Below, in pieces: positions 10,221-52,361 of a stretch of DNA of 54,047 nt (position 1 is the stretch's first letter; the number at the start of each line of letters is the position of its first letter). A program made the translations under genes and the position numbers. The notes beneath the pieces are model-generated. The model saw only the letters and a program-made list of their open reading frames with translations. It had not been told where the DNA came from and searched no databases. Source of the stretch: Oscillospiraceae bacterium (GTDB lineage: Bacteria > Bacillota > Clostridia > Oscillospirales > CAG-272); contig SVTW01000010.1 in assembly GCA_015063585.1 (NCBI GenBank), positions 1 through 54,047 of the forward strand, given 5' to 3'.

Positions 10221-12083
10221 ATGAAAAAAGCATTGCGGATCGGATTTCACCGCTATGATACCGACGAACATTTCGAGGAGCATTTGCGCTTTATCCAAAA
10301 AAATGCAGCGCATATCGACGAGATCACGCTTTTTGCAGAGTTCTCACATTACGGTTATTGGGATCTTGAAACGTCGGCGCAAAACGCGGCGCTCCTCAAG
10401 CACCGCATTGCCGATTATCGGGCAGCGGGGATCCCGCGTGTCGGAATCAACCTGCTCACCACGATCGGACATCTTGACGAGGGCTGGGGCGTTCTCCCCC
10501 CCGCGCCTTTTCCCTATCAGGTCCATGCCGACGGCAGCCCTTCCAAGGGTCAGCTTTGCTTTGCAAACGAGGCATTTTTAGAGCATACGGCGCGGCGTTA
10601 CACGCTTTACGCCAAAACCGGTGCCGATTTTATTTGGATGGACGATGATATCCGCGTGGAAGGATACGGCTGTCTTTGTGACGGCTGCATTCGATCTTTT
10701 AACGAGGAACAGCATGCCGCTTGGGATCGCGCCTCCCTTGTAAAGGCACTTCCGGAGAACGCCGCACTGTGCGACGCGTGGATGCGCCGCCAGAATGATG
10801 CGATCCAACGGGTGATCGCAACCGTGCGCAAAAGCGTACAGGCAGTCGATCCGCGTATTGCGATCGGTTACATGTCGATCAACGGAAACAAGAAACCGAA
10901 TTGGATCGAGGAGAGTCGCGCTGTCATGGGCCGCCCGGGTGGCGGATTTTACGACGAGCGTTCCCCTTGGCGTATTTTGGAAAAAGGCTTCCGCGTGCAG
11001 CAGCAGATTGCCGCGTATCCCGCCCGCATCACAGACATTCAATATGAATATGAAGCGTTCAACTACCAAACCCTCAACCGCTCGCGCCGTTTTACCGAGC
11101 TGGAAACCGCCCTTGCGCTGATGTCGGGCTGCACGGGTGTGCTCTACAACAACGACATCTTCCGCGACAGTCAAGCCCTGCTTGATATGCTCGCCGAACA
11201 CACAGCGGGCTGGTCGGCTTTGACCGAGCGAAACCGCGGCGCTCTTCCCACGGGTGTCTATTGCTGCGACTGCCGTTCCGCAAATACCTTGGCTGAGCTG
11301 GGACTCCCCGTAACGGCACACCTCTCTGCCGCCGTTGCCGCATTTGCAACCGGTAAGGAGCTTGCACGCTGTTCGGATGCCGAGCTGCGCGCATTGCTTG
11401 ACACGGGGCTTTTCACCGACGGCGCGGGACTGGGGCTGCTTTGTGACCGCGGATATGCGGAGCGTTGCGGCGGAACGATCGCAAAGGTGCATGAAAGCGG
11501 CATGGCAGAACGCTTTACCGATCACGCGGTCAACGGAAAATATCCGCGCTTTTACCGCGATGCCTTTATGAACTTTTCCTATTATATCGACAACACGGGG
11601 CCTGCCTACACCCTTGCGCCCGCAAAAGATGCCGCGATCATTTCCAATTTGGAAACCATTACGCACCAACCGATGGGTTGCAGCTGCTATCTCTATGAAG
11701 GCGCGGACGGAACATGCTTTGCGGCAGACGGCTATCTGTTCCCCAAATCGCTCAACTCACAGGAAAAACGCGAGCAGATCACCAATTTGATCGATCGCAT
11801 CGCGCATGGAAGACTCCCCGTGCGCACAGATGCCCCCGTAAAGCTGATGACAAGTGTAACACTTGGAGGCGACGGCGGCATGCAGATCCTGCTTGCAAAT
11901 CTCTCGCTTGATGACAGCGGCTCGTTCACCTGCAGAATACGCAGCCACGTAACCTGCTGTCGGATCACGCCGTCGGGTGCGCTTCTCCCCATGCCGCAAG
12001 CATACGCGGACGGCGAGACGCTTGTTCCCGTTGATCATCTGCGCCCGTTTGAATACCTGCTCCTGACCTGCACGCCCGTTTGA
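10221..12083 (+). CDS. glycosidase-like TIM-barrel protein with CxCxxC
   Basis: 620 residues, with ACAGGAGGATTTCAGT before the ATG. The N-terminal two thirds look like a TIM barrel (EITLFAEFSHYGYWD, RVGINLLTTIGHLDEGWG). WMDDDIR (139-145), followed by CLCDGC (151-156), matches the acidic-then-cysteine pattern of putative glycoside hydrolases related to GH42 and DUF4838-type enzymes. The C-terminal part (MQILLANLSLDDSGSFTC) looks like a beta-sandwich. There is no signal peptide, so it should act in the cytosol on imported oligosaccharide. The 690-residue protein at 47262 has the same layout. Monocistronic; catalytic residues not proven. Confidence 0.6.
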   Translation: MKKALRIGFHRYDTDEHFEEHLRFIQKNAAHIDEITLFAEFSHYGYWDLETSAQNAALLKHRIADYRAAGIPRVGINLLTTIGHLDEGWGVLPPAPFPYQVHADGSPSKGQLCFANEAFLEHTARRYTLYAKTGADFIWMDDDIRVEGYGCLCDGCIRSFNEEQHAAWDRASLVKALPENAALCDAWMRRQNDAIQRVIATVRKSVQAVDPRIAIGYMSINGNKKPNWIEESRAVMGRPGGGFYDERSPWRILEKGFRVQQQIAAYPARITDIQYEYEAFNYQTLNRSRRFTELETALALMSGCTGVLYNNDIFRDSQALLDMLAEHTAGWSALTERNRGALPTGVYCCDCRSANTLAELGLPVTAHLSAAVAAFATGKELARCSDAELRALLDTGLFTDGAGLGLLCDRGYAERCGGTIAKVHESGMAERFTDHAVNGKYPRFYRDAFMNFSYYIDNTGPAYTLAPAKDAAIISNLETITHQPMGCSCYLYEGADGTCFAADGYLFPKSLNSQEKREQITNLIDRIAHGRLPVRTDAPVKLMTSVTLGGDGGMQILLANLSLDDSGSFTCRIRSHVTCCRITPSGALLPMPQAYADGETLVPVDHLRPFEYLLLTCTPV

Positions 12084-15318: not shown

Positions 15319-15461
15319 GCAGAGGCTGCGTCATTGGCGCAGCCTCTGCTCAAAAAAGCCGACGGTAGGCTTTTTTGTAGCGCGGAAATTGCGGTGTTTA
15401 GCCGCAAAGCAAAAACGTCGGGGGTGAGTACCAAATGCATTTTTGCATTTGACTCACCCCC
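15319..15461 (+). repeat. composite multi-hairpin element, copy B (terminator)
   Basis: GCAGAGGCTGCG/CGCAGCCTCTGC (15319-15349), then AAAAAAGCC/GGCTTTTTT (15352-15376), a GCGG...CCGC part, AAAAACGTC and the palindrome GGGGGTGAGT...ACTCACCCCC (15420-15461) followed by TTTTT. It lacks the CGACTGC hairpin of copy A. It separates convergent genes, so it probably terminates both. Confidence 0.85.
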
Positions 15462-15496
15462 TTTTTGGTTGTACGAATGTAGCGGAACGTTGCCCG

Positions 15497-18081: not shown

Positions 18082-19146
18082 TTATTCGATCGATGCGATC
18101 TCAACGCGCGCGATGCCGAGTCGGCAAAGCGTGTTTCCGTCAACCGCGTCGCCGCGACAGTAGGCAAGAAGCAGATGCCCGTCGTTGGTTTGGAAAACAG
18201 ACGGATAGCAATATCCGCGCGTGGGATCGTCTTCCACGAGATTGACCGGTCCGTAGGTCTCGCCGCCATCGGTGCTCTTTCGGATCACGATGGGGGTGCG
18301 ATCCCAGGTTCCCTCCGCCGAAACGCGGCCGTTGTAGCGCGGTACGGGATTGTAGATCGCGTAGGTCACACCGTCAAAGCGCTTGACCTGCATGGGCGAT
18401 GGAGGCGAGGTGAATTGGCTCGCGTGCGGCGTGGTAAAACGGTTGACGTCGCCGTCGGATTCACATTCGTATTGGCAATAATAGTTGGTGCGCATCCAAA
18501 GGTAGAGCGAGCCGTCCTCCCGCTCCAGCACACCGGGCTCCTGTAAGCCATAGCGCATATTCTGTTTGTCGGTGGTGGTAAAATCAAAGTCCGCCTTGAA
18601 AAAGCTTGCACCGTCGTCCTCCGACACCAAAAGCGTGGTGATGTAGGGAACACGCATGTCAGACACCGCCTGCTCGGGCTCAACGTATGCCGCGGGCGCC
18701 AGAATGCGGCCGTCACGCAGACGGACAAGGCGGTCGTTGTTCACCACGTAATAATGGCGGGGAAAATCGGCACGGCAACGCTCGTTGCAAAAATGGATAC
18801 CGTCCGCGCTCACCGATCTGCCAAGCGTGGTGCTGCAATCGGTCTCCTTGATCAGATAATAAAAGGCGAGATCACCGTTTTTCTGCTCCAGTGCCGAAAC
18901 ACTCATGATATTTCCAACCCCGAATTCCGATGCGTACGCAATGATGCGCGGCTCGCTCCAGGTGTTTCCTTCGTCCCACGAAACCGTGAGTGCGATGTTG
19001 CAATTTGCGTGGTCGTGGTTGCTCTCGCCCTGATAGCGGCTGTAGGCGAACAGGATCTCTCCCTTCTTGCCGCGCAAAAAAGCCCCCTCGCTGTTTCGCG
19101 GGTTCTTCTCACCGGGTGCAAATTGTTGCGTCAGAGTTATATTCAT
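18082..19146 (-). CDS. sialidase-like BNR-repeat protein
   Basis: 354 residues, GAAGGAGAAATACAGTC before the ATG. Asp-box motifs of the sialidase beta-propeller are visible: SWDEGNTW (about 56-63), SEDDGASF, and STDGGETY. Other matches are GRSVSADG and REDGSLYLWMRTN. The classic FRIP motif is not clear, so substrate specificity is uncertain. No signal peptide: a cytosolic propeller acting on small sialosides or another amino-sugar derivative. It is divergent from nanA with regulatory DNA between them, which supports a sialic-acid link. Confidence 0.75.
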   Translation of the reverse strand: MNITLTQQFAPGEKNPRNSEGAFLRGKKGEILFAYSRYQGESNHDHANCNIALTVSWDEGNTWSEPRIIAYASEFGVGNIMSVSALEQKNGDLAFYYLIKETDCSTTLGRSVSADGIHFCNERCRADFPRHYYVVNNDRLVRLRDGRILAPAAYVEPEQAVSDMRVPYITTLLVSEDDGASFFKADFDFTTTDKQNMRYGLQEPGVLEREDGSLYLWMRTNYYCQYECESDGDVNRFTTPHASQFTSPPSPMQVKRFDGVTYAIYNPVPRYNGRVSAEGTWDRTPIVIRKSTDGGETYGPVNLVEDDPTRGYCYPSVFQTNDGHLLLAYCRGDAVDGNTLCRLGIARVEIASIE

Positions 19147-19197
19147 GACTGTATTTCTCCTTCATTCCGAAACTCCGATCCGATCGGTATTGTTCAT

Positions 19198-19226
19198 ATT
19201 ATAAATCTTTTTTTCGCTTATTACAA
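19198..19226 (-). promoter_or_regulatory. promoter of sialidase-like gene
   Basis: Minus strand: TTGTAA (19221-19226), 17 bp, TATAAT (19198-19203). Confidence 0.7.
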
Positions 19227-19237
19227 TATCTATCAGA

Positions 19238-19259
19238 GACATTTTTTCAAAAAAATGTC
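19238..19259. promoter_or_regulatory. palindrome between divergent promoters
   Basis: Arms GACATTTTTT and AAAAAATGTC (10 bp each, 2-nt centre) sit between the two divergent -35 boxes, the natural place for an operator that controls both sialidase-like and nanA transcription. The AraC protein at 20235 is a candidate ligand-responsive binder. Confidence 0.5.
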
Positions 19260-19270
19260 CGTTTTTTATA

Positions 19271-19299
19271 TTGAAATGGAGGAATATTTGTATTATAAT
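19271..19299 (+). promoter_or_regulatory. promoter of nanA
   Basis: TTGAAA (19271-19276), 17 bp, TATAAT (19294-19299), 42 nt before the ATG. Confidence 0.75.
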
Positions 19300-19340
19300 G
19301 TCCTTATAAACAATAAAACAAAGACAAAGGAGCTACTTAT

Positions 19341-20222
19341 ATGACACCGAAAGAAAAATTTGGCGGTATCTATCCCGCTCTGATTACCCCCTTTGATGAA
19401 AATGACCGTGTAAATACCGCGGCTCTTACACAGCTCGTGGAAAAGCTCATCGCCGATGGCGTGGACGGCTTTTACGTAAACGGAAGCACGGGCGAAGCCT
19501 TTTTGCTCGATGACGAGGAGCGCCGCCTGGTTTACAAAACCGTTGCCGACGCCAATCGCGGACGTGTGCGTCTGATCGCGCAGATCGGCGCGATCTCCAC
19601 CAAAAAAGCGATCGAATTTGCAAAATACGCCGAGGCTTGCGGCTACGATGCCATTTCCTCCCTCGCGCCCTTTTACTATAAGTTCTCGTTTGAACAGGTA
19701 AAGAAATACTATTTTGATATCGTGGACGCGGTCAACGTTCCCATGATCATTTATAACATTCCGCTTTATTCGGGTGTGAGCATGAGCGTGGATCAGATCG
19801 GTCAATTCCTCTCGGACGACCGCTTCATCGGAATCAAGCACACGGCAAACGATTATTTCGCGCTCCAGCAGTTCAAGCGCGTGTTCCCCGACAAGGTAAT
19901 GTACAACGGCTTTGACGAAATGTTCATCGCAGGTCTTTCAATGGGCGCTGACGGCGCGATCGGAAGCACCTATAACTTTATGGCGGGAAAGGTGATCGCC
20001 CTCCTCAAGGCATTCCGCGAGGATCGCATCGCCGAAGCGCAAAAGCTGCAGGGTGAGGTCAGCAACATCATCGCAAAAATGGTTAAGGTTGGCGTAATGG
20101 AAGCCATCAAAGAGACCCTGAACCAACAGGGAATCCCCGTTGGACGCGTGCGCGCGCCCTTCTCGGAGCTTACCGACGAGCAAAAAGCATACGTCAGAGA
20201 CGAAATTCTCCCCTTGCTCTGA
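19341..20222 (+). CDS. nanA: N-acetylneuraminate lyase
   Basis: 293 residues with AAAGGAGCTACTTAT upstream. Class I aldolase of the DapA/NanA family: GSTGE (48-52), MIIYNIPLYSG with Tyr near 138, and the Schiff-base Lys in GIKHTAN near 166. VNGSTGEAFLL and the NIP segment favour N-acetylneuraminate lyase (sialic acid to N-acetylmannosamine plus pyruvate) over dihydrodipicolinate synthase. It neighbours a sialidase-like gene, is 12 nt before an AraC regulator, and has its own promoter. No nanE/nanK is visible in the window, so the pathway must be completed elsewhere. Confidence 0.9.
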   Translation: MTPKEKFGGIYPALITPFDENDRVNTAALTQLVEKLIADGVDGFYVNGSTGEAFLLDDEERRLVYKTVADANRGRVRLIAQIGAISTKKAIEFAKYAEACGYDAISSLAPFYYKFSFEQVKKYYFDIVDAVNVPMIIYNIPLYSGVSMSVDQIGQFLSDDRFIGIKHTANDYFALQQFKRVFPDKVMYNGFDEMFIAGLSMGADGAIGSTYNFMAGKVIALLKAFREDRIAEAQKLQGEVSNIIAKMVKVGVMEAIKETLNQQGIPVGRVRAPFSELTDEQKAYVRDEILPLL

Positions 20223-20234
20223 TCGGTTGCCACC

Positions 20235-21149
20235 ATGCGTGAACTTCTATGTAAGCTTGATTTGGGCGAGGTCCGCCTAACTGCCGTCCTCTTTGACCAA
20301 GCCTTTTCCCTCAACGGAAAATACGGCTCGCGTTGGTCGATGGCACGGCTGGAAAGCGCGCATCAGCACTCTACCTATGAGCTTTTCATCGTCACGGGCG
20401 GTGAAATCAGCATCATGACCGAACAGGAAACGCTGGTTTGTCGGAACGAGCTCGTGGTGATCCCGCCCTTCATCAATCACTACACCGTGTTGGAGGGGGC
20501 GGAGGGCTGTTGTATGTATTTCTCCTTAGAACCGCCCGCAAAGCCGAGCGGCTCACGCTATGCCGTTTTGCAGGCTGCACTTTCGCGTGGGATCGTTACC
20601 CTGCCCCTGAACCATGACGAGCAGTTTTATACCTCCCACCTTTTTGAGTGCTTCCGCGAGGATATCCCCAAAGAAATCAACCACCACCTGCTCGCTCTGC
20701 TTTTCTATGAGCTGTTCTCCAGAATCGCTCCGCAAAAAGCCGAGAGTCGCGCCGTTTCCAAAAAATACGGCACCTACATCAATACGGTGGAGGCATATAT
20801 CTCAGAGCACTACAATGAGAATATTACGCTGAGTGACCTTTCCGAGCAGCTTTACCTCTGCACCAAGCAGATCTCACGCATTATTCGCCGCGCTTATAAT
20901 TGCTCGCTCTCCGAGCTTGTAAACCGTAAACGGTTGGCGGTGGCATGCATGCTGCTCAAATATACCAACCTGCCGATCAGCGAGATCTCGGCAAACGTGG
21001 GTTACGGACACGAAAACTATTTCTTTACGCTCTTTCGTCGTACATACGGCCGCTCACCTCGCGCCTACCGCAAGGAAATGACCGCCGCCCCCGAGCCCTC
21101 AAACAAACTCGACAATCCCATCACCAATCACACAAAACCGTCCAACTGA
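20235..21149 (+). CDS. AraC family regulator of the nan unit
   Basis: 304 residues, ATG at 20235 only 12 nt after nanA, so cotranscribed. The N-terminal half is a cupin-like sensor (YELFIVTGGEISIMTEQETL, VVIPPFINHYTVLEG). The last 100 residues hold two helix-turn-helix units: NITLSDLSEQLYLCTKQISR and LPISEISANVGYGHENYFFT followed by FRRTYGRSPRAYRK, the standard AraC signature. Probably an inducer-responsive activator of the nan genes. Followed by a family palindrome acting as terminator. Confidence 0.9.
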   Translation: MRELLCKLDLGEVRLTAVLFDQAFSLNGKYGSRWSMARLESAHQHSTYELFIVTGGEISIMTEQETLVCRNELVVIPPFINHYTVLEGAEGCCMYFSLEPPAKPSGSRYAVLQAALSRGIVTLPLNHDEQFYTSHLFECFREDIPKEINHHLLALLFYELFSRIAPQKAESRAVSKKYGTYINTVEAYISEHYNENITLSDLSEQLYLCTKQISRIIRRAYNCSLSELVNRKRLAVACMLLKYTNLPISEISANVGYGHENYFFTLFRRTYGRSPRAYRKEMTAAPEPSNKLDNPITNHTKPSN

Positions 21150-24498: not shown

Positions 24499-24524
24499 TG
24501 CACGAATGAAGAAAACCGAAAAAA

Positions 24525-24695
24525 GGGGGTGAGTCAAATGCAAAAATGCATTTGGTACTCACCCCCGACGTTTTTGCTTTGCGGCGAAACGCCGCAATAT
24601 TCGATTGCCCTGCAGTCGAAAACCGCAAATTCCGCGCTCCAAAAAAGCCTACCGTCGGCTTTTTTGAGCAGAGGCTGCGCCAATGACGCAGCCTC
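24525..24695 (-). repeat. composite multi-hairpin element, copy C (inverted)
   Basis: Read on the minus strand: GAGGCTGCG/CGCAGCCTC hairpin, AAAAAAGCC/GGCTTTTTT, TCGACTGCAGGGCA with a decayed partner, a GCGG...CCGC hairpin, AAAAACGTC, then the palindrome GGGGGTGAGT...ACTCACCCCC (24525-24566). Same order as copy A and downstream of the minus-strand MBL gene, so again at a 3' end in the transcript sense. Confidence 0.85.
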
Positions 24696-44763: not shown

Positions 44764-46170
44764 TCACCAACGACAGCCCACCTCATATCTTCCCCAGCCT
44801 GCTCGCTCATAGTTTCCGTCAATCGGCATCACACGGCGCAAAAGCGCGGCGGAATAGGTGGCGGCTTTAATCCCCTTCATGTCGTGAATCTCTTCAAATC
44901 CACCCACGCCCATGAGCAAAATGATCGGAAAACCTTTGGAAAGCGTGTGCCACGTGGTGTGCATGTATCCCATAACCGCGCCGCTCTTTGCCGTGATAAG
45001 CGCGGTGTCGATCTGCGCGCGTCCTTCGTCCCACGGGCAGAACAGACAATCAAACCCTGCCTTTTTGAAAACCGAGACGGTTTCCACCGGTGCCTCGGGG
45101 GCGCGGTATTGCCAATCCGCCATTACAATCTGCCGATCCAGATGCCCCAGCAGGTACTGCTCCGCCTCACGTGTGGGCGCGTTGCAGGTATAGCGGTTGT
45201 TGGGATTGTAATGCTCGTAACGGTACAGGAACATGTCGCCCCACAGAATGGCACGGCGTCCCCGGGCAATCAGATCGCGGCTCGCCTCGTTGATGAAATC
45301 GCAGAGGAAATCCATATTCTCCTTGGTAAATTCAAAATTAAACGCCTCGTCACAGCCAATATGGAAATAGGTACCCTCGCCGCAAAGCTCGATCAACTCC
45401 TCTCGGATCTGACGGAGCAATGCCCGCACCTTGTTTTGGCGGATATCCCAGCACCAGCCGTCCTCACTGAAATAGCTTTGCAGAGCGGGATTTTGGTCGA
45501 GCACCACGTGCTTGCCGTGCATCACACGTCCCGCCGACGCGTGTCCCCAATGGTTGAACATCGGAATGACCTCAAGCCCCAGCGCGCGCGCCTCGGAAAG
45601 AATCGGTCGCACCTCCTCTTTGGTAAAACCGTGCGACCAGGACAGCTCCTGCATGCAGTCGTATTTCAGCATGCCCCAAAATTCCAACACGATATGGGTA
45701 TATTTGAGCGCACCGCAAAAGCGTACAAAGCGTTGCAGCTCCCAGAGTTCGGTCTCAGGAAAGATGCAGTAATGGATCATGCGGGTTTGAACCAGCGCCC
45801 GCTCCCGGATCTGACAGCATGCCACTTCAACCGCGGTTTCCCCGTTTTCGTCGATGGCATGGAAGCGGTCCAGCAGAGTCAAAAAGCCGTGGATCAGATC
45901 CCGCTCGTTCTCGGCATACACGCAAATACCGTTGGGCGTTACGTGGATGCTGTATGCGGCACCGTCGAGGGCAAGCCGCTCCGCGTCTCCAACAGAAAAA
46001 ACAAACTCGTTGCAGGTGCTGAGGGTGAGGCTTGACGATCGATAGGAAAAGTTGTGCCAAAACGTCTGTAGGATGGGTTTGTTCAGGCAGGTATGTGCCA
46101 GTGCCGACACGTGGGCGGGCAGAACGAAACGCTCCTCGGTTTGAATCCGGTTTTTCGGGTGGAAAATCAT
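44764..46170 (-). CDS. GH20-like beta-N-acetylhexosaminidase
   Basis: 468 residues; the ATG at 46170 has AAAGGAGCATTGCACT upstream. GH20-like barrel: MIHYCIFPETELWELQRFVR, LGLEVIPMFNHWGHAS, FHIGCDEAFN with the catalytic Asp-Glu pair. The usual HxGGDE reads HIGCDE, so one Gly is Cys. Ends with MGYMHTTWHT, the Trp-rich wall typical of GH20. No signal peptide: it would remove terminal GlcNAc/GalNAc from imported oligosaccharides. Divergent from an AraC gene that probably controls it. Confidence 0.75.
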   Translation of the reverse strand: MIFHPKNRIQTEERFVLPAHVSALAHTCLNKPILQTFWHNFSYRSSSLTLSTCNEFVFSVGDAERLALDGAAYSIHVTPNGICVYAENERDLIHGFLTLLDRFHAIDENGETAVEVACCQIRERALVQTRMIHYCIFPETELWELQRFVRFCGALKYTHIVLEFWGMLKYDCMQELSWSHGFTKEEVRPILSEARALGLEVIPMFNHWGHASAGRVMHGKHVVLDQNPALQSYFSEDGWCWDIRQNKVRALLRQIREELIELCGEGTYFHIGCDEAFNFEFTKENMDFLCDFINEASRDLIARGRRAILWGDMFLYRYEHYNPNNRYTCNAPTREAEQYLLGHLDRQIVMADWQYRAPEAPVETVSVFKKAGFDCLFCPWDEGRAQIDTALITAKSGAVMGYMHTTWHTLSKGFPIILLMGVGGFEEIHDMKGIKAATYSAALLRRVMPIDGNYERAGWGRYEVGCRW

Positions 46171-46308: not shown

Positions 46309-47055
46309 ATGCTCTACCATTTTGATGACCTTGCCTTTCAAATTCTGACAATTGACCGTTTTACACACAAGGAAGGCTTTTTTGATGTTGCGGAACGCCC
46401 ATATGCCGCGTTTTCCTTTCGTGTCAAGGGCTCGGGAATGTTTAAAATCGGAAACCGAAGTCTCCTTGTAAAGCAGGGTGACATTCTCTTTCTCCCTGCC
46501 GATACGCCCTATCAGGTGGAATATTCCTCAAGCGAGAGCATTGTGGCACACCTGCGGCATTGCAATTATTTCAATGCCGAAACATTCCGTCTCCAAAACC
46601 CGTCCGAGGCGTCCCTGCTCTTTACAAAGCTGGTAGAGGATTGGCAGACCAATCATTCGGTCAATCAGGCAAAGGCAGCGATCTACTCGATTCTGGACCG
46701 TATGGAAAAAGAAAAAACCGTGTCGATTGAAAACACGGCATTTGCAAGCTGTCTGCGCTATATCGAATCGCACTATTGCGAGCCCACCCTCCATATCGGC
46801 AACGTGTGCAAGGAGGGCTTTATCAGTGTTTCGGGACTTCACCGCGCATTCATGCAGCAGTTCGGTATGTCGCCCATGCAATACGTGATCAAGCTCCGCA
46901 TGGAAAAGGCATTGCACCTCTTGGCGGAAAACAACGATTCGGTGAAGGAGATCGCGTTCCGGTGCGGCTTTACCGACGAAAAATACTTCTCCAGAGCAAT
47001 CAAGCATCGATACGGTGTGCCGCCGTCGCAATTGCGGAATCATATTGCGGAATAA
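46309..47055 (+). CDS. AraC family regulator
   Basis: 248 residues, GGGGGAAAAC before the ATG. N-terminal cupin sensor (FFDVAERPYAAFSFRVKGSG, LVKQGDILFLPADTPYQVEY) and C-terminal double helix-turn-helix (LHIGNVCKEGFISVSGLHRA; SVKEIAFRCGFTDEKYFSRA followed by HRYGVPPSQLRNH). Divergent from the GH20-like gene, so it likely senses a related sugar and activates it. Confidence 0.9.
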   Translation: MLYHFDDLAFQILTIDRFTHKEGFFDVAERPYAAFSFRVKGSGMFKIGNRSLLVKQGDILFLPADTPYQVEYSSSESIVAHLRHCNYFNAETFRLQNPSEASLLFTKLVEDWQTNHSVNQAKAAIYSILDRMEKEKTVSIENTAFASCLRYIESHYCEPTLHIGNVCKEGFISVSGLHRAFMQQFGMSPMQYVIKLRMEKALHLLAENNDSVKEIAFRCGFTDEKYFSRAIKHRYGVPPSQLRNHIAE

Positions 47056-47148
47056 GGAAAAGGCGACCTGTTTTTTGCCGAAAGCCGTTCGGGATCATGC
47101 CGCCTACCGGTGGTCCGACGAAAATCTGCCGCCGCCTTTATGAAGCGA

Positions 47149-47190
47149 GGGGGTGAGTACCAAATGCATTTTTGCATTTGACTCACCCCC
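47149..47190 (+). terminator. palindrome family copy with shared right flank
   Basis: GGGGGTGAGTAC-CAAATGCA-tttt-TGCATTTG-ACTCACCCCC. The flank after it (CGCTTTCTGTTTTTGCAGGA, then a TCGGG/CCCGA hairpin up to about 47231) is shared with 51470-51510. Between convergent genes. Confidence 0.8.
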
Positions 47191-47261
47191 TACGCTTTCT
47201 GTTTTTGCAGGATCGGGAAGCCCGACCGGGGTTCGGTTGGTAAAGAGGATTGTTTTTTTCC

Positions 47262-49334
47262 TTATTTAGCGAATCTGAGAATGAGAAACGAGGTCTTCTC
47301 AGGCAGAGTGATCGTACATACGCCATTCGATTGCATAATACCGGAAGGGGCGTCGTTGAACGGTGTATATACGGTTGGAGAAGAAGCGGTTTTTAGCTGT
47401 ATCAAACGATTGACTCCGATGGGTTCAACGTGGTTTATGAAATTGACGCGGCTACGGTGGAACCGCATTTCATCCAGGCGGTGGTCGATATCGGTTTCAA
47501 AATCTTCGGCAAGCATTTGTACGATATAAGAATCCTCGGTTTCAAAAAAGGTAATCAAATACCCCTGTGCATCCAGAATCTCGATCGGCATGGGGCGTAT
47601 GTGTGCTTTCACGAGATCAAGCAGTGACTCGGTAATGCGGCCTTCGCTAATGCGGTCCGGGTTGTAGTAAAGACCTCTCCGCGCCTCACGCCACACGGGC
47701 TTCTCGTCGGAGAGCGGAAATTCGGTGAGACGCGTCCAATCGGCAGACTTGTGCCAAACACCGTTCGGAACACTGCTGAAAAAGTCGGTGGGATCGGTCA
47801 AGAGCGGTGCCGATGGCAAGCTCCGATTGCTCTCACAGCCCTCCAAAGCGGCGGGACCGAACACAACAGCAACGCCTCCGCGCGCGATGTAGGCATTTAG
47901 ATCTGCGCGCTCCGCATCTGTCATCGCGGCGGGCGACGGCACCAGTACCAGCGGATATTCTTCGGGACTCTTGGGGAATCGGATTACCGTGTGCGGACTG
48001 AGCCCCTCGCTAAAGAGCAGTTTCAGCGTTGTCGACCAATCGCGGTAATAGCCCCGATCTACATTACCGAAGAAGGTGCGCTTTCGGGTCTCATAGGAAA
48101 AATACACACCAAGCTGCGCGATCTGTTTCCCTTCAAAGAGTGCGGGGTGCTCTCGCTCAAAGCCAAACGCTCTGCCCACGATATCCCATTCATTGGGAAG
48201 CGTTTCCAAAATATGATCGGGTAGACCAAGCCGATCCTTGAGAGTGGAGAGCCAGCAATCACAACCGAGCATTTTATTGACCGCCCAAACGATATTGGCG
48301 GTCGTTTCGGTAAAGCCGAAGCCCGTGGAAAAGCATCGAACGCCCCGCTCGCGTGCCGCTGCTTGATGGAGCGAAGCGTTCACCAAGCGCGATGGAATAC
48401 TTGAATTTGCCGTGACGGGGTCGTGCTTGTAGGGCGGCGTATTGCCGCTCATCTCGAGATTGACATAGTTGCACCCCGAAAGAAAGGACGCAGCATCCGA
48501 GCCCTTTTCGTTGGCGGTGGGGCTTGCGCTATTGGAACCGCAGGTGGTGAGTCGGAAGCCTTCGGGGAGTGCAGCGGAGACACGCTCAAAGAACACGGAG
48601 GCAGAATCGAGACGAAGATCGATCCAATGATGCCATGCGGGGTTCTCCCAATTCCCCCAAAAGCTGCGATCGTCGATGGGGGGCAGATCGATCCCCGCGC
48701 GTGCTTTAAGTTCCGCACGGCAATAGGGGCAGGCGCAGGAATTGTAGTGCATATAGTGCACCGGATCGTCTGCCGAGAGCCCCGTGATACCGGTTTCACG
48801 TACCAGCCGTTTCACGTAGTCGACATATGCCTCCACAAATTCCGGATTGCGGTGACAAAAGCCCTCTGCCGCATATTGTGGATAATAGAGTACGTCACGC
48901 GTTTTGACATCGATCATTCGCCAATCGTTGAGGCGTTTTCCTTTGTACTCCCAGCATGCCGCCGCCTCGCGCGAGGGTGAAAAGGGCAAGTGCGGTCCGC
49001 TGTGGAGCATGACGTGGCGCATTTCTTCCTTGGTGCTGTATCGGTGAATAAGATTAACAGAATGATGATCCCAAAGCTCTACGCCGCATTTTCCAAGTTC
49101 CTCGGCAACGGTTGCCAAATAATCGTGAAGGAGAGTAAAATAGGGCAAATAGTCCCAACGAAAATGCGTTCCGAATATCATAGCTGTGGTTACGTTTGCT
49201 CTTGCCATAGATTCGGCACGTCTTTTTATCTTGTCAAGATTATCGCCGTTTGGCCAATTCAGGTCGTTCCAGCGGATCCACCAAGATGCAATGCGCTTTC
49301 TTTCCGTGACTGCAAGCGGTTGCTGATGCTTCAT
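47262..49334 (-). CDS. large glycosidase-like TIM-barrel protein in MurNAc operon
   Basis: 690 residues; the ATG at 49334 overlaps the murQ stop by 4 nt and has GTGGAG upstream. Barrel-like N-terminal half (RIASWWIRWNDLNWPNGDNL, GVELWDHHSVNLIHRY), acidic LSADDPVHY (186-194) and the CACPYC motif (200-205), the same order as in the protein at 10221. The second half looks like a GH42-style domain (VLVPSPAAMTDAERADLNAY) and a C-terminal beta-sandwich. No signal peptide. Coupled to murQ, so MurNAc-containing wall fragments are a reasonable substrate guess. Confidence 0.6.
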   Translation of the reverse strand: MKHQQPLAVTERKRIASWWIRWNDLNWPNGDNLDKIKRRAESMARANVTTAMIFGTHFRWDYLPYFTLLHDYLATVAEELGKCGVELWDHHSVNLIHRYSTKEEMRHVMLHSGPHLPFSPSREAAACWEYKGKRLNDWRMIDVKTRDVLYYPQYAAEGFCHRNPEFVEAYVDYVKRLVRETGITGLSADDPVHYMHYNSCACPYCRAELKARAGIDLPPIDDRSFWGNWENPAWHHWIDLRLDSASVFFERVSAALPEGFRLTTCGSNSASPTANEKGSDAASFLSGCNYVNLEMSGNTPPYKHDPVTANSSIPSRLVNASLHQAAARERGVRCFSTGFGFTETTANIVWAVNKMLGCDCWLSTLKDRLGLPDHILETLPNEWDIVGRAFGFEREHPALFEGKQIAQLGVYFSYETRKRTFFGNVDRGYYRDWSTTLKLLFSEGLSPHTVIRFPKSPEEYPLVLVPSPAAMTDAERADLNAYIARGGVAVVFGPAALEGCESNRSLPSAPLLTDPTDFFSSVPNGVWHKSADWTRLTEFPLSDEKPVWREARRGLYYNPDRISEGRITESLLDLVKAHIRPMPIEILDAQGYLITFFETEDSYIVQMLAEDFETDIDHRLDEMRFHRSRVNFINHVEPIGVNRLIQLKTASSPTVYTPFNDAPSGIMQSNGVCTITLPEKTSFLILRFAK

Positions 49335-50158
49335 GTCTCCACACCGTCCTCTCTCGCTTCCACCGCCGCACGGATATTCCATGCGTGGGCTTCCAACCGC
49401 GAAACCGCTTCGTCCTCGGAGCAATGCCGGATCTCCCGCACGATGCGAACCACACGTCGTTTTAATTTTTCGTTTGACGGGGAAAGATTGATCATCATAT
49501 TCTCATACACCTTACCCGTTTTTGCCATGGCACAGGTGGTCAGGGTGTTGAGAACGATCTTCTGTGCCGTCCCCGCTTTCAGTCGGGTAGAGCCCGTAAG
49601 CACCTCTGCGCCGGTGTCTGTAAATATCTGTATGTCCGCCGCGTTCAGTAGTTTCGTGTCGGGATTGCTGCTGATCCCTACGGTTACAGCGCCAAGTGAT
49701 TTGGCAGCTTCGATTGCGCCAACCACGTACGCCGCATTGCCCGCCGCCGATATTCCCACCACAACGTCCTTTGATGTAACGCCGTGTTCGGTGATCGCTT
49801 CACAGCCCTTCTCATAGTTATCCTCTTCGTTTTCTCCCGCGCGGAACATTCTTTCGTTCCCACCCGCAATAATACCCTGTACCTGATCATAGGGAACGCC
49901 AAACGTGGGAGGACACTCGGCGGCATCGAGTACACCGAGTCTCCCCGACGTTCCCGCGCCGATATAGAAAAGGCGTCCGCCTTTCTCAAAGGCATCTGCA
50001 ATAGCATCGACGGCTTTCGCAATCGGAGCTACGGCATCTTCAACCGCTTTTACAGCTTCATAGTTTGCCGTAATCACGAGGCGTGCCATTTCTTCGGAAC
50101 TCATTTGGTCCATATTCATACTGTACGGATTTCTTGCTTCTGTTTTTGAAATGTTCAC
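49331..50158 (-). CDS. murQ: N-acetylmuramic acid 6-phosphate etherase
   Basis: 275 residues, GTG start after GGAGGAATAAAGAC, overlapping the kinase gene by 4 nt. The family signature GAGTSGRLGVLDAAECPPTF (68-87) is intact, as is the SIS fold with ISAAGNAAYVVGAIEAAKSL and TGSTRLKAGTAQKIVLN. It cleaves the lactyl ether of MurNAc-6-P to GlcNAc-6-P plus D-lactate, the key step in peptidoglycan recycling. About 25 residues shorter than E. coli MurQ, mostly at the C-terminus. Confidence 0.95.
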   Translation of the reverse strand: MNISKTEARNPYSMNMDQMSSEEMARLVITANYEAVKAVEDAVAPIAKAVDAIADAFEKGGRLFYIGAGTSGRLGVLDAAECPPTFGVPYDQVQGIIAGGNERMFRAGENEEDNYEKGCEAITEHGVTSKDVVVGISAAGNAAYVVGAIEAAKSLGAVTVGISSNPDTKLLNAADIQIFTDTGAEVLTGSTRLKAGTAQKIVLNTLTTCAMAKTGKVYENMMINLSPSNEKLKRRVVRIVREIRHCSEDEAVSRLEAHAWNIRAAVEAREDGVET

Positions 50159-51297
50159 GTCTTTATTCCTCCATAGGTTTTTTTGAAGTTTTCGTAAAAT
50201 GCGTCAACAGGTTTACAACCTTCCATCCGACACGCACTTCTACAAGCGCCGTAAATGGGGGGCAGATCGCTCATTTTCAAATTCACATTGCTATATTTTC
50301 CAATATGTTCGGCTATAATATCTCCATTGTGTTCAAATAGGCCTCCGCTTGCAATTGCTAAGGCGGTCGCCCCGTAAAGCCTCACACCCGCATTGAGCAG
50401 TTCCGCCAATGCCTTTGCATTTTTGTCTATGATTTCCTTTGCCCTCGTGTCTCCTTGCTGATAGGCTTCAAAAACCACCGAGGCAAGACCTGCTATGTAC
50501 GGCTTTCCTCCGTTATAAACCGTATTTATATGATTCCATACGGTGTCCGTATTCAGTTTTTTGTATAGCATACGACTCATCCGGGAAGGACTTTCTTTCA
50601 TATCCTCTTGGCGCAATGCCTCCCTGAGCGCATCTCTGCCAATATCGTACGCACTTCCCGCGCCGTCAAGAAGATAGCCCCAGCCGCCAAGCCTTTTGTA
50701 GGAGTTTCCGTCTTTTACAAAAACGACCGAGCCCGTGCCACTGATAACCGCCATATCGGCTCTTTCATCCAGCGCAAACAAATTAAAGGAATCATTTTTT
50801 ATTTGTATGTTAATTTTGGGGTAACGTTTTTTCAATTCGTCCTGCAAGCGTTTGGCATTGTCCCCCGTGGAGATTCCCGCGATCCCACAAAAGACCGATT
50901 TTATCGATTGAAACTCCTTCAAAATATCTCCAATTCCATCTAAAATCAAGGAGCTCATTTTTGAGTATCCGATATCATTTGGATTACACCCGCTTTTTAA
51001 AAGGCGTTTTTGTACGTATCCATCGGCAGATACAAGTAGGAACTCGGTTTTTGTGCCACCTCCGTCAATCCCCAGAAAAAGATCCTCGTTTTGCGGACGC
51101 AAAAGATCGTCCACCAATATGCCAAAATATGTGGCGATATTGATTAAATTTTCAAGCTCGGGCGGGGCGATCCCTCGCTCCCAATTGGAGACTGCCTGAA
51201 AGCTCACATGAAGAGCATCGGCAAACGCAGTTTGCGTCAAACCTCTTTCTTTTCTTAACTCCTTGATCCGTCTTCCGATTAAACTTATATCAAGCAT
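50155..51297 (-). CDS. XRE-HTH/BadF-type sugar kinase fusion
   Basis: 380 residues, ATG at 51297 after GAGAGGTATATT. Residues 1-65 are an XRE helix-turn-helix (IKELRKERGLTQTAFADALH, FQAVSNWERG). From about 75 follows an ASKHA sugar-kinase fold of the BadF/NAGK/MurK type: LGIDGGGTKTEF phosphate loop, GIAGIST, VISGTGSV, GGWGYLLDGAGSAYDIGR and ASGGLFEHN. It most likely phosphorylates MurNAc/GlcNAc before MurQ and controls its own operon according to sugar. HTH-plus-kinase fusions are known in ROK proteins, but this kinase belongs to another branch. First gene of the operon. Confidence 0.85.
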   Translation of the reverse strand: MLDISLIGRRIKELRKERGLTQTAFADALHVSFQAVSNWERGIAPPELENLINIATYFGILVDDLLRPQNEDLFLGIDGGGTKTEFLLVSADGYVQKRLLKSGCNPNDIGYSKMSSLILDGIGDILKEFQSIKSVFCGIAGISTGDNAKRLQDELKKRYPKINIQIKNDSFNLFALDERADMAVISGTGSVVFVKDGNSYKRLGGWGYLLDGAGSAYDIGRDALREALRQEDMKESPSRMSRMLYKKLNTDTVWNHINTVYNGGKPYIAGLASVVFEAYQQGDTRAKEIIDKNAKALAELLNAGVRLYGATALAIASGGLFEHNGDIIAEHIGKYSNVNLKMSDLPPIYGACRSACRMEGCKPVDAFYENFKKTYGGIKT

Positions 51298-51327
51298 AAT
51301 ATACCTCTCAAACACGTTTGTATCTTA

Positions 51328-51356
51328 ATTATAACAATCCTTAATAGATAAGTCAA
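51328..51356 (-). promoter_or_regulatory. promoter of the kinase-murQ-glycosidase operon
   Basis: Minus strand TTGACT (51351-51356), 17 bp, TATAAT (51328-51333), 31 nt before the ATG. Confidence 0.8.
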
Positions 51357-51429
51357 TCGAATTGTAATTTATAATCGTCCTATTTTCAATTGATAATTGA
51401 AATATTGATGCGTATGCCAAACCAAAAGA

Positions 51430-51467
51430 GGGTGAGTCAAATGCAAAAATACATTTGTTACTCACCC
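51430..51467 (-). terminator. palindrome family copy, inverted within shared flank
   Basis: On the minus strand GGGTGAGTAACAAATGTA...TGCATTTGACTCACCC then TCTTTT. One pair in the core has changed (TGCA to TGTA). It terminates the AraC gene at 51546. The flank on its plus-strand right side matches that of the 47149 copy, although the palindrome has the opposite orientation. Confidence 0.8.
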
Positions 51468-51545
51468 CCTTCGCTTTCCGTTTTTGCAGGATCGGGCTGC
51501 CCGACAGGAGTGTGGTCAAGTAAGGACAACAAAAGTGAAAAGAAT

Positions 51546-52361
51546 TTATTTCACATTTTCATACTTTAATTGAATTTTTTTCGCATATTCCCGCGGAGCG
51601 GAACCGATTTTTTTCTTGAAAGCATAGCTGAAGTAGGATTGTGATGAAAATCCGCACTCGTAGGCAATCTGTGTAAGTGTCATATCGGTAGAAATCAGCA
51701 GATTGACAGATTTTTTGATTCGTTGATCTTCCACGTATTCGTGTAGCGTTTTTCCCGTGGAGGCTTTGAAAAGCTTGTGAAAATATATTGCATTGAAATT
51801 TGCCGCGCTTGCTAACCTTCCAAGTGTAAGATCGGCAGACAGGTTACGGTTGATATATTCCAGTGTCCTCTCTATTGTTTTGTGATTGTTACTTTTCGGA
51901 GTGGATTTTATGACAGCGGCAGAGTTTTCACTTAATATATATATGAGTTTAAGAATTAGGCTTTGAATCAGGACGTCATCGTTTGTAATTCCTGTATTAT
52001 AATGTTCGCACAGCGATATAAAGATCTCTTTGATCTGGTCTGTATTTGAAAAATCGATATAGTTCGGGAGAGTAGTAAGGATATCAGCAAGATACCCCTC
52101 GTTAACAATCATATGGATATAATAACATTTAAACGGTAATCGAGTATGGCGGATCTGCCCGGGCTTTGCGCAAATGACTGTATTATGCCGGATCGGGTGA
52201 GATTCATCATCGATATATGACTGCCCGCCGTTCCCAATGGGTAACTCAATCTCAAACATCGTCGTTTTTCTGTTTTTGGATATTGTACGGTTCTTTATTG
52301 CGATTTGGGCATTGTATATTCCAATCGCAACGATCTGCGGCAAAATGATTTCCTTTTTCAT
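51546..52361 (-). CDS. AraC family regulator
   Basis: 271 residues, TTTGAGGAGTT before the ATG. N-terminal sensing domain (TTMFEIELPIGNGGQSYIDD, HNTVICAKPGQIRHTRLPF) and C-terminal AraC pair (LTLGRLASAANFNAIYFHKL; MTLTQIAYECGFSSQSYFSY with FKKKIGSAPREYAKK). More AT-rich than its neighbours. Divergent from the UlaG-like gene and glycosidase at 52486 onward, which it probably regulates. Confidence 0.9.
   Translation of the reverse strand: MKKEIILPQIVAIGIYNAQIAIKNRTISKNRKTTMFEIELPIGNGGQSYIDDESHPIRHNTVICAKPGQIRHTRLPFKCYYIHMIVNEGYLADILTTLPNYIDFSNTDQIKEIFISLCEHYNTGITNDDVLIQSLILKLIYILSENSAAVIKSTPKSNNHKTIERTLEYINRNLSADLTLGRLASAANFNAIYFHKLFKASTGKTLHEYVEDQRIKKSVNLLISTDMTLTQIAYECGFSSQSYFSYAFKKKIGSAPREYAKKIQLKYENVK

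Follow-up and report, generated by a model that had tools for sequence, protein, structure and literature searches.

The window, a stretch of 54,047 nucleotides (nt) from contig SVTW01000010.1 of an Oscillospiraceae bacterium, carries on its minus strand (51297–47262) an array of three genes: a fusion of an XRE DNA-binding domain with a sugar kinase, then murQ, and then a gene for a protein of 690 amino acids (aa). The array probably serves to salvage the cell-wall sugar N-acetylmuramic acid (MurNAc). Its parts are known; the combination is new. A first-pass annotation, made from the letters alone, had described three genes overlapping by 4 nt each, and the open reading frames agree with it: the kinase gene and murQ share 50155–50158, and murQ and the 690-aa gene share 49331–49334.

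The XRE–kinase features two Pfam domains. Residues 11–64 match HTH_3 (PF01381) with 58.0 bits against a cut-off of 23 and hence form a helix-turn-helix (HTH) of the Cro/C1 type, and residues 75–351 match BcrAD_BadFG (PF01869) with 82.1 bits (cut-off 31.5), the kinase domain of the BadF/NAGK type. The phosphate motifs DGGGTKT and GTG are retained. Among solved structures, 8zo3 is the best sequence match (E value 5e-22); it bears the name N-acetylmuramic acid/N-acetylglucosamine (GlcNAc) kinase. The Pfam domains and this Protein Data Bank (PDB) match bear out the initial reading of an XRE domain joined to a BadF/NAGK/MurK-type kinase. The protein stays below the NCBIfam equivalog for GlcNAc kinase, NagK_SO3507 (74.3 bits, required 370), and below the ROK domain PF00480 (18.3 bits, cut-off 22.9). 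The second gene had been named murQ, and its product passes the equivalog TIGR00274 with 316.3 bits (cut-off 302). No regulatory RNA is matched at the Rfam gathering score in the whole window, and a scan of 51250–51560 yields no terminator-like site. The features are collected in Table 1.

Table 1. Features of the three-gene array and its upstream region
Feature	Position	Strand	Details
XRE–kinase fusion	50155..51297	-	ATG at 51297; 380 aa; Pfam HTH_3 and BcrAD_BadFG over cut-off; PDB 8zo3
murQ, N-acetylmuramic acid 6-phosphate etherase	49331..50158	-	GTG start; 275 aa; TIGR00274 over cut-off
690-aa protein, predicted GH42-like, exchangeable third place	47262..49334	-	ATG at 49334; predicted model and Foldseek
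D189–D190	48765..48770	-	End of predicted barrel strand 4; 45/45 aligned sequences
CxCxxC (C200, C202, C205; with C160 a candidate metal site)	48720..48737	-	45/45 aligned sequences; putative metal role
Putative operator, perfect palindrome TTCAAT-N5-ATTGAA	51385..51401	none	Clade-specific in relatives; sole perfect match in own assembly
Sigma-70-like promoter TTGACT-17-TATAAT of the operon	51328..51356	-	11/12 consensus bases

Recurrence of the fusion and turnover of the third gene

Searched with a profile of 11 fusions (A1), 130 of 395 family genomes give kinase matches at E 1e-30 or better; among the matches listed, the HTH is covered by 49, which come from 48 genomes. In the wider order, E 1e-80 is reached in 22 of 394 genomes. 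Matches to murQ at E 1e-40 are present in 125 of the 395 family genomes. The analysis covers 88 kinase loci, not counting the duplicates L040, L076, and L079. An HTH is present in 70 and absent from 18, the latter being a chosen subset of many more. On the same strand and within 3 kb downstream, murQ follows 60 of the 70 HTH-kinases, with a gap below 150 bp in 58, and 15 of the 18 kinases without HTH, with such a gap in 13. Two of the ten HTH-kinases without a nearby murQ (L159 and L176) lie within 700 bp of a contig end, and the genome of L159 carries a partial murQ and a 690-aa gene on a different contig. The pairing of kinase and murQ exceeds chance, and the two genes are the conserved core of the operon.

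A tree of the kinase domains of all 88 proteins, obtained by a quick search, splits into clade A with 37 members, including the window, and clade B with 51 (SH-aLRT 100 each). Its well-supported branches require the HTH to have been gained or lost at least five times. With about 80% identity, the kinases of L149 and L151, from two genomes of another genus in the family, are the nearest, and the murQ products of these genomes are 87% and 83% identical to that of the window. Among kinases of the same genus, L035–L039 and L042 fall into the other clade and L033 into that of the window. The G+C content at third codon positions is low in the kinase gene (0.457) and in its two upstream neighbors (0.430 and 0.446), set against a mean of 0.665 (standard deviation 0.055) for 18 other genes of the window, which hints at a foreign origin.

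The third place acts as an exchangeable slot, occupied by different glycosidase families in different loci. The slot genes lie on the same strand beside the kinase–murQ pair, mostly after murQ; exceptions are L034, where the gene precedes the kinase gene, and L204 and L205, where it stands between kinase and murQ. Among the loci with HTH, the slot holds an unclassified type of 560–600 aa resembling glycoside hydrolase family 42 (GH42) in 17, DUF4838 in eight, DUF6259 in six, and the 690-aa type in five; among those without HTH, it holds the 560–600-aa type in three, DUF4838 in two, and NamZ once. The latter case, L207, carries a member of this exo-muramidase family as its third gene (PF07075, E 1.9e-64; PF20732, E 7.6e-42). 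Of the 44 members of the four slot families among 945 genes called in the 88 loci, 40 lie within 600 bp of the kinase gene or murQ, a figure that describes rather than tests the association, as the families were picked from this very place. At least 14 changes of slot type are needed on the kinase tree. The kinase beside the 690-aa type belongs to clade A in the window and to clade B in L152, L153, L155, and L158 (61–63% identity). In L163, a 600-aa type fills the slot, and a 690-aa gene runs convergent to it.

The 560–600-aa family retains E174 and E325 in 15 of 15 members, and one member reaches PF02449 (21.4 bits, cut-off 21); the family might resemble a retaining enzyme of clan GH-A. In the portion of the open-licence PMC literature covered, one paper, on marine bacteria, brings DUF4838 together with a glycoside hydrolase (PMC9870897). 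In L204 (1860–6000) and L205, the gene lying between a kinase without HTH and murQ is a DUF4838 gene, and in L204 an α-L-rhamnosidase follows. GNAT acetyltransferases stand directly after murQ in L187 (5488–6639) and L168 (2895–3812) and might act on amino sugars; L191 (417–1571) reads similarly by eye.

No Pfam or NCBIfam model scores the 690-aa protein above its cut-off. Neither of the GH42 families PF02449 and PF08532 is listed for it, a relative scores 19.4 with PF08532 (below 25.8), and there is no match to the NamZ (GH171) families PF07075 and PF20732. Its predicted model, built with 45 sequences, has a predicted local distance difference test score of 88.6 and a predicted template modeling (TM) score of 0.91. 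As judged by Foldseek, the best match of this model is 8ibs, a GH42 β-galactosidase (E 4.9e-17, TM 0.59, root-mean-square deviation 9.8, identity about 12%), and the match spans nearly the whole chain. The predicted fold is hence GH42-like. Cwp19 of Clostridioides difficile, a wall hydrolase, appears at ranks 44, 46, and 47 with a TM score of about 0.6 by its own length. All 45 sequences keep H57, R59, H90, S92, C160, D189, D190, C200, C202, and C205, and the DD…CxCxxC layout noted at first sight is thereby upheld. Going by the predicted strand order, D189–D190 presumably stand at the position of the GH42 Asn–Glu acid/base pair, and C160, C200, C202, and C205 may form a GH42-like zinc site. 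A signal peptide is not evident by eye, no predictor having been run. Elsewhere in the window (10221–12083, plus strand), a 620-aa protein features a DDD…CxCxxC arrangement and no Pfam domain over cut-off; aligned with the 690-aa family, it shows 18% identity.

Palindromes upstream of the fusion and surroundings of the operon

The upstream region in the window contains the palindrome TTTCAATTATCAATTGAAA, the arms of which are identical in L151, L160, and L163. Of 49 discovery loci, 14 carry TCAA-N7-TTGA in the 200 bp upstream, set against a mean of 0.41 and a maximum of 3 in shuffles; of 12 loci fetched later, 3 do (shuffle mean 0.09, largest 2). Six discovery loci and two later ones were dropped with an unparsed HTH, and one with a short upstream stretch. 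Of the spacers 5, 6, 8, and 9, only 8 rises above its shuffles (4/49, largest 2). When all 4-base arms with spacers of 3–14 are scanned, TCAA-N7 ranks first for the type of the window with 17 of 33 (expected 0.28); in 60 shuffles, no arm is counted more than 9 times. For the other type, ACTC-N11-GAGT ranks first with 12 of 28 (expected 0.05, shuffle largest 7).

The two palindromes follow the clades of the tree. Counted over the HTH-kinases without L127 (69 of 70), TCAA-N7-TTGA is found in 18/34 of clade A and 0/35 of clade B, and ACTC-N11-GAGT in 0/34 and 12/35, with Fisher p values of 1.3e-7 and 1.6e-4 that are too small as given because related rows are not independent. In the loci fetched later, the former pattern occurs in four of seven clade-A and none of seven clade-B upstream regions; the latter occurs in one of seven clade-B regions, which is no real held-out test. 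The two HTH clades differ in the region of the recognition helix, and most sites are located 90–140 bp upstream of the start.

The site of the window (51385–51401) is the sole perfect TTCAAT-N5-ATTGAA in the 2.24-Mb assembly. Copies with one mismatch stand at seven other places of the assembly; a reversed control pattern gave one. The seven copies, all outside the window, may mark a wider regulon. The palindrome lies 28 bp upstream of the TTGACT-17-TATAAT promoter (51356–51328), and the promoter scan gives four promoter-like sites in 311 bases, with 0.9 in shuffles. DNA binding had been expected from the first reading at 51300–51360; this interval holds the promoter-like site, and the palindrome is located just upstream of it. 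Since the palindromes are clade-specific and the site of the window is the only perfect copy in its assembly, the data favor binding of the XRE–kinase to its own upstream region. As to the sign of regulation, repression would be favored in L173, where the palindrome covers a −35-like TTGATT; in the window, activation is possible because the palindrome lies upstream of the promoter. The idea of a trigger enzyme, put forward in the first-pass annotation, is thus strengthened by a recurring fusion with two HTH clades and their own palindromes, yet unproven.

Within its own assembly, 86.5% complete, no match is found to NamZ, GH3, or MupG; of 14 genomes searched, 12 have GH3 and none has MupG, and NamZ is limited to the one that carries it as the slot gene. 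A GH20-type gene near the array (44764–46170, minus strand; PF00728 over cut-off) codes for a product that could split GlcNAc–MurNAc. The XRE–kinase–murQ–DUF4838 operons of L038 and L042 have relatives of it in their vicinity, at 42% and 40%. The gene is divergent from an AraC regulator (46309–47055, plus strand), and this pair recurs near the operons of L038 and L042. A further AraC regulator (51546–52361, minus strand) lies upstream of the kinase gene, and in L081 a relative of it (48.6%) is divergent from an orthologue of the 690-aa gene. At 18082–21149, a BNR-repeat protein, an N-acetylneuraminate lyase (NF003164 over cut-off), and an AraC-type gene make up a possible sialic acid locus. 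The palindromic hairpin repeat GGGTGAGT...ACTCACCC is located at 427–469, 15420–15462, 24524–24566, 47140–47240, and 51427–51511. The last two copies were considered as the border of an operon-specific mobile cassette; this was rejected, as the repeat is genome-wide, with 82 matches in the assembly, most places on both strands and hence about 40 places.

Proposed salvage of MurNAc, alternatives, and known systems

On balance, it is moderately probable that the array forms an autoregulated MurNAc-salvage operon, the third gene of which codes for a MurNAc-releasing glycosidase. The XRE–kinase would bind its own promoter region via the palindrome, and MurNAc—perhaps GlcNAc too—would alter this binding by being bound or phosphorylated. 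The kinase would convert MurNAc to MurNAc-6-phosphate, from which MurQ would form GlcNAc-6-phosphate and lactate, and the third-gene product, here the 690-aa protein, would cleave an imported wall saccharide inside the cell and so set MurNAc free. The pair of kinase and murQ would remain fixed, and the third place would serve as the slot for interchangeable glycosidase families. MurNAc salvage, as suggested at first reading, fits MurQ, the MurK-like kinase, and NamZ in L207, though the substrate cannot be read from the sequence. That the operon controls itself and that the slot enzymes release MurNAc are both inferences, and the data favor them.

A number of observations weigh against this account. 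No transporter is identified in the operon, and 24 of the 60 HTH operons carry none of the four slot families. The HTH is dispensable, since most of the kinases without it are likewise followed by murQ. Upstream regions are free of the palindromes in 16/34 of clade A and 23/35 of clade B, and a narrower 12-position motif from the window is not significant over 44 other loci combined (p 0.23; three perfect loci, with 11 loci having no start assigned in that test). The 690-aa family has no invariant Glu and none conserved at predicted strand 7 in place of the GH42 Glu pair, so its mechanism may differ from that of GH42. Close orthologues of the 690-aa protein number 15 in 12 of the 395 family genomes, and nine of them, including both of the same genus (L067 and L068), are located away from murQ. 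L204, without HTH, has in its operon the α-L-rhamnosidase, with no evident link to MurNAc. Finally, the kinase of the window features Asn before the catalytic Asp instead of Ser or Thr.

The third gene could instead code for an unrelated glycosidase that shares the transcript and acts on host or plant glycans without any role for MurNAc. This is a serious possibility, if a doubtful one: the diversity of the slot families, the rhamnosidase of L204, and the nine dispersed orthologues speak for it, while the 4-nt overlap of the 690-aa gene with murQ, the occurrence of the 690-aa family and murQ next to kinases of both clades, and NamZ at the equivalent place in L207 speak for a MurNAc-releasing enzyme. 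The neighborhood of the 690-aa gene, by which its role was to be checked, is itself divided, with six of the 15 orthologues (window, G251, G330, G359, G397, and G432) beside murQ. For the earlier proposal of a new wall hydrolase, this outcome cuts both ways; the predicted fold of the protein is GH42-like.

The kinase, on the other hand, might act mainly on GlcNAc or another amino sugar, with MurQ taking part of the flux in a general amino-sugar recycling. Such a role is unlikely, although it draws on several features: the name of 8zo3 covers both sugars, the neighborhood includes a GH20-type gene, and, according to PMC10465942, Asn precedes the catalytic Asp in most related sugar kinases, as in the window, and Thr does so in T. 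forsythia MurK. Against it, the constant neighbor is murQ, the substrate of which is MurNAc-6-phosphate, and 31 of the 57 HTH-kinases parsed by a loose pattern have Ser or Thr ahead of the catalytic Asp; this pattern left 18 of the 88 kinases unparsed. PMC10465942 also attributes the space for the lactyl group in T. forsythia MurK to S133-P134-L135 and T94, and it states that MurNAc binding is not identifiable from sequence. The residue before the catalytic Asp thus neither proves nor excludes MurNAc as the substrate. That the HTH no longer controls the operon and is a relic, serves dimerization, or acts at other promoters is improbable, for the repeated gains or losses of the HTH and the seven one-mismatch sites that would fit it stand against a palindrome type that tracks the HTH clade and a perfect site upstream of the window operon.

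If the salvage account is right, the fusion combines catalysis and control in a single chain and is a MurNAc regulator of a different kind from MurR. The operon would also point to a function for four glycosidase families, since the kinase and MurQ indicate which product these would have to supply. A wider claim would be that of a new class of cassette, in which the XRE–kinase senses MurNAc by phosphorylation and controls its own operon via an operator that shifted along with its HTH clade, and at least five glycosidase families (690-aa, 560–600-aa, DUF4838, DUF6259, and NamZ) are exchanged for one MurNAc-releasing job. This is offered tentatively and is rather unlikely to hold in full; if it does, muramidase activity would be assigned to four families without a named function in the share of the literature searched. 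Within the same share of the open-licence PMC literature, no paper on an XRE–MurK fusion was found and no repressor of this kinase family is named.

Several known systems bear comparison. NagC and Mlc are ROK repressor-kinases, in which an HTH is joined to a sugar-kinase-like domain. The XRE–kinase has the same layout and likely shares the logic of sugar-dependent control, but its HTH is of the XRE type and its kinase domain falls below the ROK cut-off; it may work like a ROK repressor-kinase, though outside that family. MurR of E. coli is a regulator of the RpiR/SIS type without kinase activity. The MurR–murQ system likewise places MurNAc catabolism via MurQ under a dedicated regulator, whereas regulator and kinase are one chain in the window operon. 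MurK (T. forsythia structures in PMC10465942; 8zo3) belongs to the same kinase superfamily and works with MurQ. The 8zo3 chain of 306 aa, however, aligns only from residue 74 of the fusion on, and the XRE domain is extra in the fusion. The exo-β-N-acetylmuramidase NamZ holds the third place in L207; it belongs to Pfam families other than the 690-aa protein and is unmatched in the assembly of the window. GH42 β-galactosidases resemble the 690-aa protein in the predicted fold over nearly its whole chain and differ by the low identity; the 690-aa family has an invariant Asp–Asp and no conserved Glu at predicted strand 7.

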